Assembly: GCF_032878875.1 (NCBI RefSeq) | Contig: NZ_CP118157.1 | Coordinates: 2,976,001 to 3,040,000, forward strand | Length of the DNA stretch: 64,000 bases | Origin: Microbacterium sp. AB | Lineage (GTDB): Bacteria > Actinomycetota > Actinomycetes > Actinomycetales > Microbacteriaceae | Direction: 5' to 3' | Part shown: positions 47,067 through 55,382 of the stretch, one piece after another | How the letters are laid out: every line of letters starts with the position of its first letter | Numbering within the stretch: position 1 is the stretch's first letter | Position numbers and translations under genes: made by a program | The notes under the pieces: model-generated | Told to the model about the DNA's origin: nothing | Databases searched by the model: none | Seen by the model: the letters and a program-made list of their open reading frames with translations, nothing else

Positions 47067-47200
47067 CCGCCGACGTCTCCCGGGCGATCAGTCGTATCCG
47101 AGGACGACGACCGCCTCGGTGCTCGGAGGCGGCTCGGCCTCTCGCCCCTCGTCCGCGGCCTCGGCGTCGCTCATACGACCGCCGCTGTCTCCCGGGCGAT
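47067..47200. repeat. 22-bp direct repeats flanking a 28-codon ORF
   Basis: The 22 bases at 47067-47088 and at 47179-47200 match at 20 positions (shared GTCTCCCGGGCGAT). The second copy is the 3' end of the threonine aldolase gene, the first lies just past the small ORF. Confidence 0.5.
47088..47174 (-). CDS. Possible 28-residue protein coupled to threonine aldolase
   Basis: A short frame, MSDAEAADEGREAEPP through VVVLGYD, whose ATG overlaps the threonine aldolase stop (ATGA). It is acidic, has no known motif, and is flanked by the repeat described here. It may be a genuine coupled small protein or simply an open frame left by a local duplication. Support is the start-stop overlap only. Confidence 0.25.
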   Translation of the reverse strand: MSDAEAADEGREAEPPPSTEAVVVLGYD

Positions 47201-48244
47201 CGCCGCGACGAAGGCGTCGACGTCCGCCTCGGTCGTGTCGAAGGCGCACATCCAGCGCACCTCGCCCGTCGCCTCGTCCCAGTCGTAGAAGCGGAAGCCC
47301 TCGCGGAGCCGGTCCGCCACGCCGCCGGGCAGGATGGCGAACACGCCGTTCGCCTGCGTCTCGCGCGTGAGGCGCACGCCGCGGATCGATCCGTCCGCGA
47401 GACCCGCCTCGACGCCCGCCCGCAGCCGCTGCGCCATCGCGTTCGCGTGACGGGCGTTGCGCAGCCAGAGGTCGCCGTCGAACAGCGCGAGCAGCTGCGC
47501 CGACACGAACCGCATCTTCGACGCCAGCTGCATGTTGAGCTTGCGGAGATAGGCGAGCCCGGTCGACGCCTCCGGGTTCAGGACGACGATCGCCTCGGCG
47601 AGCATCGCGCCGTTCTTCGTGCCGCCGAGGCTCAGCACGTCGACGCCCGCGTCGCGCGTGAACGCCCGCAGCGGCAGGTCGAGGGCCGCTGCGGCGTTCG
47701 CGATGCGCGCGCCGTCGACGTGCACGTGCATCCCGAGCTCGTGCGCGTGATCGGCGATCGCGCGGATCTCCTCCGGCGTGTACACCGTGCCGAGCTCGGT
47801 CGACTGCGTGATCGACACCGCCAGCGGCTGCGCGCGATGCACGTCGCCCCATCCCCACGCCTCCCTGTCGACGAGCTCGGGCGTGAGCTTGCCGTCCGGC
47901 GTCGGGACGGTCAGCAGCTTGATGCCGCCGATGCGCTCCGGGGCCCCCTGCTCGTCGACGTGGATGTGCGCCGTCGACGCGGCGACGACCCCGCCCCAGC
48001 GCGGCAGCATCGACTGCAGCGCCGTCACGTTGGCGCCCGTGCCGTTGAAGACGGGGAACGCCTCGACGGGCTCGCCGAGGTGCCCGGCGAGCACCTCCTG
48101 GAGGCGGGCGGTGTACGAGTCCTCGCCGTAGGCGACCTGGTGCCCGTCGTTCGCCGCCGCGATCGCGGCGAGCACATCGGGGTGGACGCCCGCGTAGTTG
48201 TCTGAGGCGAATCCACGCGGGGCCGTGTCATGCAGAGGGGTCAC
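47171..48244 (-). CDS. ltaE: Low-specificity L-threonine aldolase
   Basis: A 357-residue PLP enzyme of the beta-eliminating lyase type that splits threonine or allo-threonine to glycine and acetaldehyde. It begins with the family pattern FASDNYAGVHPDVLAAIAAAN, continues through YGEDSYTARLQEVLAGHLG, VFNGTGANVTALQSM, and HVDGARIANAAAAL, and has the PLP-binding Lys at about residue 210 in LSLGGTKNGAMLAEAIV. The start is GTG 48244: TAGGCT lies six bases upstream and no ribosome site exists, so translation is probably leaderless. It is divergent from the YigZ gene. Confidence 0.93.
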   Translation of the reverse strand: MTPLHDTAPRGFASDNYAGVHPDVLAAIAAANDGHQVAYGEDSYTARLQEVLAGHLGEPVEAFPVFNGTGANVTALQSMLPRWGGVVAASTAHIHVDEQGAPERIGGIKLLTVPTPDGKLTPELVDREAWGWGDVHRAQPLAVSITQSTELGTVYTPEEIRAIADHAHELGMHVHVDGARIANAAAALDLPLRAFTRDAGVDVLSLGGTKNGAMLAEAIVVLNPEASTGLAYLRKLNMQLASKMRFVSAQLLALFDGDLWLRNARHANAMAQRLRAGVEAGLADGSIRGVRLTRETQANGVFAILPGGVADRLREGFRFYDWDEATGEVRWMCAFDTTEADVDAFVAAIARETAAVV

Positions 48245-48256: not shown

Positions 48257-48401
48257 GGCCGGGGCCGCCCGACACGACGCAGGACGAAAGCCCCACGGTG
48301 ACCCAGCGACCTGCGTGAGCCCGCGGCCCCACACGACGGTCGCGGGAAGATCTCCTGCGTTGTGCACGGCGCCACGGCCTGCCTCCGCGGAGACCCGTCG
48401 G

Positions 48402-52295: not shown

Positions 52296-54572
52296 TCACA
52301 CCGCCCCGTGGAAGGTCCGGCTGATGACGTCGCGCTGTTGCTCGGGCGTCAGCCGGATGAAGTTCACCGCGTACCCCGACACGCGGATGGTGAGCTGCGG
52401 GTACTCCTCGGGGTGCTCCATCGCGTCCAGCAGCGTCTCGCGGTTGAGGACGTTGACGTTGAGGTGGTACCCGTCCGATGCGGTGTAGGCGTCGAGGAGC
52501 CCGACGAGGTTGTCCGTCTGCTCGTCGCGGGTGCGGCCGAGCCCCGAGGGGATGACCGTCGAGGTCAGCGAGATGCCGTCCTGCGCGTCCGTGTAGGGGA
52601 GCTTGGCGACGCTCAGCCCGGCCGTCAGCATCCCGTGCCGGTCGCGGCCGTTCATCGGGTTGGCGCCGGGGGCGAAGGGCTCGCCCGCACGGCGTCCGTC
52701 CGGGGTGTTGCCGGTGTGCGCCCCGTACACGACGTTCGAGGTGATCGTGAGCACCGACTGCGTGTGGGTCGCACCGCGGTAGGCGGGGTGCTTCCTCAGC
52801 ATCTCCATGAAGCGTTCCACGATCTCGACCGCGATGGCGTCGACGCGGTCGTCGTCGTTGCCGAACGCCGGGTACTCGCCCTCGATCCGGTAGTCCGTCA
52901 CGAGACCGCTCTCGTCGCGGATCGGGGTCACCCGCGCGTACCGGATGGCGGACAGCGAGTCGGCCGCGACGCTGAGCCCCGCGATGCCGCAGGCGAGGGT
53001 GCGCAGCACGTCGCCGTCGTGGAGGGCCATCTCCAGCCGCTCGTACGCGTACTTGTCGTGCATCGCGTGGATGCAGTTGAGCGCCTCGACGTACTGCGCG
53101 GCGAGCCACTCGAGGAGGCTCATGTACGCCTCCCACACGGTGTCGTAGTCGAGCACCTCCTCGCCGAGCGGAGCGGAGACGGGCGCGATCTGCTCCCCGG
53201 TGAGCTCGTCGCGCCCGCCGTTGATCGCGTAGAGCAGCGCCTTGGCGAGGTTCACGCGGGCTCCGAAGAACTGCATCTGCTTGCCGACGCGCATGGGCGA
53301 GACGCAGCAGGCGATCGCGGCGTCGTCGCCCGAGGAGCCGCGGATGAGGCGGTCGGACTCGTACTGGATGGCCGAGGTCTCGATCGAGATGCCGGCGCAG
53401 AACCGCTTGAAGCCCTCGGGGAGGTCGGGCGACCAGAGCACGGTGAGGTTGGGCTCGGGCGACGGGCCGAGGTTGATGAGCGTCTGGAGGAGCCGGAACG
53501 CCGTCTTCGTGACGAGCGTCCGTCCGTCCTCGCCCGTGCCGCCGAGCGTCTCGGTGACCCAGGTGGGGTCGCCGGAGAAGAGCGAGTCGTACTCGGGGGT
53601 GCGGAGGAACCGCACGAGCCTCAGCTTGATGACGAGGTCGTCGACGAGCTCCTGGGCGTCGCGCTCGGTGAGCGTCCCCTCCGCGATGTCGCGCTCGAAG
53701 TAGATGTCGAGGAAGGCGGAGTTGCGCCCGATCGACATCGCCGCGCCGTTCTGCTCCTTGACCGCGCCGAGGTAGGCGAAGTACAGCCACTGCACGGCCT
53801 CCCGGGCGGTGCGCGCCGGGCCCGAGATGTCGTAGCCGTACGTGGCGGCCATCCGCACGAGCTCCTGCAGCGCGCGGATCTGCTCGGCGTTCTCCTCGCG
53901 GGCGCGGATGACGTCCTCCGTCGCGAAGGTCGCGTCGAGCTCCGCCCGCTCGCCGCGCTTCGCGGCGATGAGCGCGTCGACCCCGTAGAGCGCCACGCGA
54001 CGGTAGTCGCCGATGATGCGGCCGCGGCCGTAGGCGTCGGGGAGACCGGTGATGAGGTGGCTGTGACGCGCTCGCTTCACGGCGGGCGGGTAGACGTCGA
54101 AGACGCCGTCGTTGTGCGTCTTGCGGTAGGTCGTGAAGGTGCGCTCGAGGTCCTCGGGGACCTCGTATCCGTAGGTCTTCAGCGCGGTCGCCACGAGGCG
54201 CCATCCGCCGAAGGGCATGATCGCGCGCTTCAGCGGCGCATCGGTCTGGAGGCCGACGATGAGCTCTTCGGGCTCGTCGATGTACCCCGGCGCGTGCGAC
54301 GTGATGGTCGACGGCGTCGTGGCGTCGACGTCGTAGACGCCGCGCTCGCGCTCCTCGGGGAACATGTGCATGAGCTTCCGCCACAGCCCGATCGTGCGGG
54401 CGGTCGGGCCGTGCAGGAACGTGTCGTCGCCGGTGTACGGCGTGTAGTTGCGCTGGATGAAGTCGCGTACGTCGATGCCCGCCGTCCAGGTTCCGGTGTC
54501 GAAGCCACGCCATGCGGGCTGGCCGGTCCCCTCGTCGGCGAGCGAACGGGTTCCGGGGTCGGTGATGGTCAT
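52296..54572 (-). CDS. pflB: Formate C-acetyltransferase (pyruvate formate-lyase)
   Basis: A 758-residue glycyl-radical enzyme that converts pyruvate and CoA to acetyl-CoA and formate. The catalytic cysteine pair is at residues 422-423 in [11 protein letters not shown], and the radical glycine at about 733 in [13 protein letters not shown]. Other family blocks are [28 protein letters not shown] and [24 protein letters not shown]. Length and motifs are those of true PFL rather than glycerol or choline lyases. TAGCGT lies seven bases before ATG 54572, and two DevR/DosR-like boxes lie further upstream. It is in one operon with pflA. Confidence 0.96.
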
Positions 54573-54579
54573 GTCCGCG

Positions 54580-54585
54580 ACGCTA
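54580..54585 (-). promoter_or_regulatory. -10 box TAGCGT for leaderless pflB
   Basis: TAGCGT on the minus strand, seven bases before the ATG at 54572. Confidence 0.5.
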
Positions 54586-54608
54586 CGCCGGCGACGCGCA
54601 CGCGGGCA

Positions 54609-54622
54609 GGGACCTTGGGCCC
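54609..54622 (-). promoter_or_regulatory. DevR/DosR-like box, proximal
   Basis: GGGACCTTGGGCCC, close to the mycobacterial DosR core GGGACTWWAGTCCC. Its centre is about 43 bases upstream of the pflB start codon, the usual class II activator position. Confidence 0.55.
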
Positions 54623-54640
54623 GCGGGGTGGGCGGGTCTC

Positions 54641-54654
54641 GGGACCTTCGACCC
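54641..54654 (-). promoter_or_regulatory. DevR/DosR-like box, distal
   Basis: GGGACCTTCGACCC, followed by TAT, 32 bases (three helical turns) from the proximal box. Confidence 0.6.
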
Positions 54655-54741
54655 TATGGCGGATTCCCCGGCAGGGGGAGCATCGGATCAACACACAACC
54701 GAAAGTGACCGGGGCTCACGCCCTCTGGAAGGAATCCGATC

Positions 54742-55332
54742 ATGGCCATCACCGCGTCCCACCCTCGCGTCTTCGCAGGCGACCGCCCAGCGCGGTCACG
54801 CGAGGCCGTCGCGCAGAGCGCCGTCGCCGGCACGACGACGTCGCGTCGCACCCTCGCCGTGCTCCGGCTCGCGACGGGCTTCATCTTCCTCTGGGCGTTC
54901 CTCGACAAGACCTTCGGGCTCGGATTCTCGACTCCCGTCGAGCGCGCCTGGCTCAACGGCGGCACGCCGGCACAGGGCTTCCTGAAGGGCGACGCGGTCA
55001 CGGGCCCGCTCAAGGGCTTCTTCGCCTCGCTCGCGACGCCCCTCACCGACGTGCTGTTCATGCTCGGCATGCTCGGCATCGGCCTCGCCGTGATGCTCGG
55101 CATCGGGATGCGCGTCGCCGCCGTCGCCGGCAGCGCCATGATGCTCCTGATGTACCTCGCGGAATGGCCCTTCATCGCGAACGCCGCGTCGACCAACCCC
55201 GTCGTGGACTACCACATCATCTACGCGCTCGCCCTGATCGTCCTGGCGGCCACGGCGGCGGGCGACACCTGGGGCCTCGGCGCCTGGTGGAAGAGCCTGC
55301 CGATCGTGCAGAAGCAGCGCTGGCTCGTCTGA
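54742..55332 (+). CDS. DoxX-family membrane protein
   Basis: A 196-residue integral membrane protein of the DoxX/DoxD group with about four membrane segments after a polar N-terminus of 35 residues (LAVLRLATGFIFLWAFLDKTFG; TDVLFMLGMLGIGLAVMLGIGMRVAAVAGSAMMLLMYLAEW; IIYALALIVLAATAAG). DoxX proteins are tied to quinone, thiosulfate or redox-stress functions in some bacteria, with no general activity shown. GGAAGG precedes ATG 54742. It is divergent from pflB and shares its regulatory spacer, so the DevR-like boxes might also serve it. Confidence 0.85.
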   Translation: MAITASHPRVFAGDRPARSREAVAQSAVAGTTTSRRTLAVLRLATGFIFLWAFLDKTFGLGFSTPVERAWLNGGTPAQGFLKGDAVTGPLKGFFASLATPLTDVLFMLGMLGIGLAVMLGIGMRVAAVAGSAMMLLMYLAEWPFIANAASTNPVVDYHIIYALALIVLAATAAGDTWGLGAWWKSLPIVQKQRWLV

Positions 55333-55346
55333 TGCCCCTCCCCGAA

Positions 55347-55382
55347 GCCGGGGCCGCGGGACGCACGTCCCGCGGCCCCGGC
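55347..55382. terminator. Bidirectional terminator between DoxX and CorA genes
   Basis: Perfect 16-bp stem (55347-55362 with 55367-55382) and a GCAC loop between convergent genes ending at 55332 and 55398. Confidence 0.88.

Follow-up and report, generated by a model that had tools for sequence, protein, structure and literature searches.

DosR (DevR) of Mycobacterium tuberculosis, which acts with the kinases DosS and DosT, has been studied mainly as a regulator of dormancy. The dosRS genes are autoregulated, and autoregulation is usual, though not required, for membership in this type of system. Enterobacterial FNR belongs to another regulator family, relies on another sensor and recognizes an unrelated DNA site. 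It exerts oxygen-dependent control on pfl and adhE (PMC4601167), fermentation genes of the kind that appear to be likewise controlled in the case described here. In Streptomyces coelicolor, the OsdR-OsdK pair is regarded by the authors who described it as orthologous to the DevR system, a view expressed for DevR (PMC5069765). OsdR bound the SCO5978-5979 region, with the predicted site CGGGACCTTCGGCCCT, in EMSA, and Table 1 of that paper names universal stress proteins (USPs), PPDK, nitrate reductase and zinc-type alcohol dehydrogenases along with other entries, and no PFL, AdhE or NrdD (PMC5069765). Among the matches listed from the open-licence PMC literature, we found no report of DosR/DevR control of pyruvate formate-lyase (PFL), AdhE or anaerobic ribonucleotide reductase; in the passages concerned, PMC3087520 has only Rv3138 annotated as PFL-activating, and the PFL in PMC5705676 belongs to Paenibacillus.

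Here we compare with these systems the pflB locus of Microbacterium sp. AB, the host, whose genome is a single contig of 3,636,743 bp with 71 percent GC; the locus lies in a stretch of 64,000 nt that was analysed as a whole (the window). With the M. tuberculosis system, taken with its generally known list of targets, the host shares the regulator, the recognition helix, a GAF sensor with the heme-ligand position, the core of the box and, as a predicted target, a USP gene. It differs from that system in its candidate targets, PFL, AdhE and class III ribonucleotide reductase, and in that no box is found at its devSR genes. USP genes are among the targets of OsdR and the predicted targets of the host DevR alike (PMC5069765).

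The pflB locus and its DevSR neighbours

The sequence-only reading of the window had placed two elements upstream of pflB, at 54609 and 54641, three helical turns apart and with the proximal centre about 43 bases from the gene start, and had seen a DevS/DevR pair converging on pflA. All of this holds: both elements are exact copies of GGGACCTTNGNCCC, with centres 32 bp apart (about three turns) and 43.5 bp between the proximal centre and the A of the pflB ATG, and devS and devR both run towards pflA, whose end is overlapped by devR over 7 bp. PFL and its activase are both matched at the equivalog level. Helical phasing was rejected as a general rule for paired boxes, given that the spacings vary in other genomes (25, 26, 32, 34, 39, 41, 43, 57, 63, 70 and 92 bp, some of the boxes being one-mismatch copies).

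Table. Features of the pflB region, with positions in the window, and the nrdDG locus, with its position in the host genome
Feature	Position	Strand	Remarks
devS-like sensor kinase, 567 aa	49156..50859	+	GAF-GAF-HisKA_3-HATPase
devR-like NarL/FixJ response regulator, 216 aa	50856..51506	+	recognition helix AEKTVKNYV as in DevR/DosR
pflA, radical-SAM PFL activase, 262 aa	51500..52288	-	TIGR02493, 302 bits (cutoff 232)
pflB, pyruvate formate-lyase, 758 aa	52296..54572	-	TIGR01255, 1129 bits (cutoff 994); PF02901; PF01228 (glycyl-radical domain)
predicted -10 element of pflB, TAGCGT	54580..54585	-	first T 30 nt from proximal box centre
proximal DevR box (putative), GGGACCTTGGGCCC	54609..54622	+	centre 54615.5; matrix score 20.9
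distal DevR box (putative), GGGACCTTCGACCC	54641..54654	+	centre 75.5 bp from pflB ATG; matrix score 23.5
divergent DoxX-like membrane protein	54742..55332	+	name given on resemblance alone; the intergenic region with the boxes is common to it and pflB
nrdDG, class III anaerobic ribonucleotide reductase	G000:C1:2972214-2974942 (L209)		one-mismatch DevR box in front

Both boxes are close to the stringent DosR consensus GGGACTTNNGNCCCT (PMC6448022), from which they depart in having C where the consensus has its first T (GGGACC, not GGGACT), the proximal box departing also at the last T. The OsdR sites at SCO5979, SCO0167 and narG2 (PMC5069765) carry this C too, and their core, GGGACCTTCGGCCC, is identical to that of the box at the host USP gene and conforms to GGGACCTTNGNCCC, as do the pflB boxes. 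The proximal box occupies the -35 position in front of a SigA-type -10 element, as in the promoters of the M. tuberculosis DosR regulon, where the proximal DosR site overlaps the -35 (PMC5360333). A leaderless pflB start is plausible because the last T of TAGCGT lies 7 nt before the ATG (A at 54572); M. smegmatis makes prominent use of leaderless mRNAs and of TANNNT -10 elements (PMC6448022). Moreover, the start codon is found 41.5-44.5 nt from the box centre in 12 of 78 box-gene pairs of other genus genomes, and thus such a start at pflB would be of a recurring type. The TAGCGTCGCGGACATG stretch of the pflB promoter recurs after a box in another genus genome (G139, L180). A Pfam search with the divergent DoxX-like protein gave no match. 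Further along the window, GGGACGCACGTCCC at 55358-55371, between convergent gene ends, can be read as a loose-pattern box in both orientations, though it may belong to a terminator hairpin.

Multiple features of the two regulatory proteins point to the DosR type. The closest solved relative of the response regulator is DevR itself (3c3w, E 5e-64), followed by VraR (3e-34); the AEKTVKNYV helix is unchanged relative to DevR/DosR, and the alignment reads VLD at the position of Asp54, which we take to be the phospho-acceptor of DevR. The kinase has the tandem GAF, HisKA_3 and HATPase domains of the DosS/DosT kinases, together with the His and Tyr of their first GAF domain: the closest solved relatives of this domain are the GAF domains of DosT and DevS (2vzw and 2w3d alignment), and His139 aligns with DevS His149, presumably the heme ligand, and Tyr161 with DevS Tyr171, presumably the distal Tyr. 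Heme binding and phosphotransfer by the host DevS can be predicted from this correspondence. No box lies upstream of devSR (best matrix score -2.4, before devS), so that the mark of DosRS-type autoregulation is lacking in the host; in some of the other genomes, devS or devR has boxes in front. In a DevR tree of 30 rows, 21 of them from the genus, rooted on two host paralogues, the host protein groups with those of G035, G136 and five other rows (99/98).

Box copies and candidate targets in the host genome

The exact GGGACCTTNGNCCC form occurs four times in the 3.64-Mb genome, against one occurrence of the reversed control, and for this reason the count by itself is unremarkable; what is remarkable is the positions, as all four copies lie outside called genes: pflB has two, and adhE and a USP gene have one each, 99.5 and 90.5 bp upstream, respectively. 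The loose pattern GGGACNNNNGNCCC, by comparison, was rejected as evidence, since its genome-wide count (32+41) hardly exceeds that of the reversed control (31+31). The sequence-only reading had taken equally good matches at random positions as counting against its proposal; this describes the loose pattern, which behaves about like its control, but not the exact copies, which are intergenic and confined to pflB, adhE and the USP gene. For scoring, we used a weight matrix of 61 sites chosen by the sequence-only reading's pattern with at most one mismatch, the host genome being left out; at these sites the two free positions of the pattern are constrained as well (C or G in 61/61; A, G or T in 60/61). 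With this matrix, two sites in the window score at least 20, a value that no site attains in 20 Markov simulations.

Copies with one mismatch number 22 in the genome, 18 of them inside called genes. The four outside lie before nrdDG, in the gap that separates a cueP-like from a P-type ATPase gene, and at the loci L024 and L037. The products of the candidate targets were annotated as follows: AdhE matches PRK13805 (1360 bits, cutoff 951), NrdD matches PRK09263 (1116 bits, cutoff 657), NrdG matches TIGR02491 (165 bits, cutoff 126), and the USP and cueP-like products match Usp (PF00582) and CueP (PF21172), respectively. The L024 box is flanked by transporter-like and TetR-like genes and the L037 box precedes a transporter-like gene, all named by sight only; we know of no link of these genes to anoxia, and they were left out of the assigned targets. 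The L024 box itself, GGGACATTGGTCCC (G000:C1:1935299-1935312, one mismatch), could be either a DevR target or a TetR operator.

With respect to promoter geometry, a TANNNT hexamer lies 30 nt from the box centre at pflB (proximal box) and adhE, 31 nt at the USP gene and the cueP-like gene, and 29 nt at nrdD, that is, at 29-31 nt in all five assigned promoters. At L024 one is found at 32 nt in one direction, towards the transporter, and at L037 there is none; altogether the spacing is present at six of the eight boxes outside genes. No TANNNT occurs at 29-32 nt from the distal pflB box, nor towards the P-type ATPase gene. Regulation of the latter by the box at G000 1412721 was rejected, the -10 element being on the opposite, cueP-like side. 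By background, a 4-nt slot contains the hexamer with a frequency of 0.0098 (184/18718), or twice this if a hexamer in either direction is accepted. The 29-32 nt slot was fixed after inspection of the histogram; the other genomes of the genus give the same peak, with.A...T falling in this slot for 40 of 78 box-gene pairs, whereas none of eleven other slots has more than 13, and strict TANNNT falling in it for nine of 78 against at most one.

A beta-eliminating lyase gene (47171-48244 in the window) may be a further leaderless DevR target: a weak box (48281-48294, score 8.6) is found 43.5 bp upstream of its GTG start, and TAGGCT is present 31 nt from the box.

Thus, of the compact oxygen-response module that the sequence-only reading had proposed, the link between DevSR and PFL is supported, and the compactness is not: the adhE, USP, nrdDG and cueP-like targets lie elsewhere in the genome.

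DevR boxes and a GntR-type operator in the genus and beyond

An orthologue of DevR (E<=1e-50) is present in 47 of 149 genomes of the genus, and the number of boxes follows its distribution. Exact boxes number 143 in the genomes with DevR (mean 3.04) and 26 in the 102 genomes without it (0.25), whereas the reversed control amounts to 0.60 per genome in both sets alike; at least two boxes are found in 34 of the 47 and in none of the 102. No association of DevR with PFL is seen in the genus (DevR in 10 of 25 genomes with PFL and 37 of 124 without it, p 0.35, a value that, like the others obtained from these 149 related genomes, overstates their independence). PFL is found in 25 genomes (E<=1e-150) and AdhE in 19, all of which have PFL.

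Boxes at pflB are present in three of these 25 genomes, namely the host (two), G136 (one exact) and G035 (one with one mismatch), and the same three have strong adhE boxes (scores 20.9 to 23.5). Among the other 16 adhE genes, a score of 8 is reached only by a weak site at that of G097 (8.5), the upstream region of G046 adhE being mostly cut off by a contig end (116 bases scanned); G046 pflB has no box upstream. The best matrix score does not differ significantly between genomes with and without DevR, either at pflB (p 0.19; 23 of 25 genomes, without G025 and G134) or at adhE (p 0.06; 17 of 19, without G010 and G037), and the four genomes set apart have no box when scored separately (best -3.8 to 0.1). 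The adhE gene of G136 is split into two overlapping frames (G136:C1:3098145-3100824; L249, L250), owing either to a sequencing error or to decay.

In most relatives that have pflB and adhE, these genes are preceded by a different element, the operator of a GntR/FadR-type regulator, which is comparable to the DevR boxes of the host in its placement and differs from the two-component DevSR in that its regulator is a one-component protein. The palindromic operator, TGTGGTCWGACCACA (genus loci L252-L281), accompanies a GntR/FCD regulator gene, often directly before that gene, and fits the TKGT/ACMA form of the FadR subfamily (PMC4494728). With its centre A or T, the exact operator occurs in 118 of the 149 genomes, against none for the reversed control; regulator (E<=1e-45) and operator are both present in 116 genomes, both missing in 20, and found one without the other in 13. 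Of 30 operator loci viewed, 15 lie before a GntR-type regulator gene and seven before the gene for subunit I of cytochrome bd, others being at adhE, FMN-dependent (lactate-type) dehydrogenase, formate/nitrite transporter, alcohol dehydrogenase-like and DoxX-like genes, with one example checked per family. At pflB, TGTGGTCNGACCACA with at most two mismatches is found in 19 of 25 genomes, all of which have the GntR regulator, and at adhE it is found exactly in 15 of 19. G035 and G136, which lack the regulator, show three-mismatch TGTGGTCNGACCACA remnants at both genes. The host has no such operator at pflB or adhE; the adhE of G046 is cut off by the contig end, and three genomes with PFL (G054, G079 and G123) have neither a DevR box nor a GntR-type operator at pflB. 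The host keeps a GntR regulator of 63 percent identity, with a single exact operator (centre C/G) just upstream of its gene (G000:C1:1315709-1315723, L286); operators with two mismatches number three in the host, the same as in the control.

Outside the genus, we considered the best 80 of at least 582 PFL relatives, 38 of which were classed as actinobacterial from their titles. A box with at most two mismatches lies within 500 bp upstream of 27 of the 38 actinobacterial pfl genes and none of the 42 others, a comparison in which GC content differs, so that it is not a clean control. In a comparison within the same loci, matrix scores of at least 8 are reached by 25 of 38 pflB upstream regions and 33 of 272 other regions (p 4e-12), and scores of at least 14 by 11 of 38 and 24 of 272 (p 0.001); this control is conservative because among its top matches are genes recognized by sight as USP-like, AdhE and DevR. 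The devSR genes stand beside pfl in six of the 38 loci. Thus, the conservation of the two boxes at pflB orthologues, on which the sequence-only reading had staked its proposal, does not extend through the genus (3/25, with two boxes only in the host) but is seen, in the form of a box-like site, in other actinobacteria (25/38). In the PFL tree, the host protein is placed next to Cryobacterium (SH-aLRT 94) and away from those of G035 and G136; DevR control of pflB in the genus would therefore have arisen repeatedly or else persist from an older state. The PFL of Microbacterium sp. VKM Ac-2870 (L063) nests among the genus genomes in this tree.

Proposed regulon and alternative readings

The recognition helix, the GAF sensor, the tracking of DevR by boxes through the genus and the -10 spacing all agree with what the sequence-only reading had supposed, namely DevR/DosR-like boxes with a DevSR-like system next door. 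We consider it very likely that DevSR of the host controls pflB, adhE and the USP gene, and probably nrdDG and the cueP-like gene, as a scattered anoxia regulon. What is new, and in our view well supported, is a DosR-type regulon with PFL, AdhE and class III ribonucleotide reductase among its targets. The proteins, boxes, promoter spacing and co-occurrence are read directly from the genomes; DNA binding, the direction of regulation and its signal, an oxygen response, are what we infer from them.

Under the proposed mechanism, DevS, as a heme-GAF histidine kinase, would respond to loss of O2 (and probably to NO and CO) by phosphorylating DevR, which would then occupy both pflB boxes and, from the proximal one in the -35 position, recruit RNA polymerase, the outcome probably being a leaderless pflBA mRNA. 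The same DevR would activate adhE and the USP gene, and probably nrdDG and the cueP-like gene. In metabolic terms, the pflBA products would convert pyruvate to acetyl-CoA and formate, AdhE would turn acetyl-CoA into ethanol with recycling of NADH, and NrdDG would allow oxygen-independent synthesis of dNTPs, while the regulon would also yield stress proteins.

Among the alternatives, the one to be taken most seriously, although we regard it as unlikely, is that the boxes are indeed those of DevR, yet signal and outcome concern general stress or dormancy, with pflB a bystander of little fermentative role. The USP gene among the host targets fits such a reading, as do the box islands of other genus genomes, which hold typical dormancy genes; the 20 stretches viewed, chosen at boxes, carry USP-like, PPDK, PfkB, P-type ATPase, pyridoxamine oxidase-like and flavodoxin genes. 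Three of the five host targets, however, form a coherent set for anaerobic growth in which the activases are present (pflA and nrdG), and nrdD (E<=1e-150) is found in a single one of the 149 genus genomes, that of the host.

Two further readings would leave less to the neighbouring DevR or to pflB, and we hold both to be very improbable. The boxes might be bound by another NarL-family regulator of the host, whose genome yields 20 NarL-type matches at E<=0.001, DevR included, and the target sites of NarL relatives can be alike; yet the next best match is only 41 percent identical, KTVKNYV is absent from the seven regulators read among the 19 other matches, and it is DevR that the box number tracks through the genus. 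Similarly, the boxes might serve mainly the divergent DoxX-like gene, which shares the intergenic region and has a G013 homologue (46 percent identical to the 54742-55332 product) with a GntR-type operator in front; DoxX-like genes are also found close to pfl at L078, L080 and L085, three further actinobacterial loci. In the DoxX direction, however, no TANNNT lies at 29-32 nt from either box, whereas one lies at 30 nt towards pflB. A chance origin of the pflB boxes, as GC-rich matches to a common pattern, might be suggested by the near-control count of the loose pattern and the location of 18 of the 22 one-mismatch copies inside genes, but is scarcely credible given four exact matches before functionally related genes, the -10 spacing at pflB, adhE and the USP gene, and the recurrence of box-like sites at pflB in other families.

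Returning to the proposed anoxia regulon under DevSR, a broader conjecture, which we offer tentatively and would not ourselves bet on, is that in much of the actinobacterial phylum DevSR acts more as a fermentation switch than as a dormancy switch, and that within the genus the control of pflB and adhE has been exchanged between GntR and DevR, G035 and G136 having been caught with a decayed GntR operator alongside DevR boxes. The wiring proposed for the host would already suggest that a DosR-type switch can ready a cell for life without oxygen and not only for dormancy. A DosR system wired to fermentation and to dNTP synthesis without oxygen, in a genus that the sequence-only reading had termed aerobic, would show what else such a system can do, and the host would offer a non-mycobacterial organism in which to study DevR promoters. 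Furthermore, the replacement of one operator by another at orthologous genes would be clearly exemplified in the genus, and such a system would predict which actinobacteria are able to ferment, and when.
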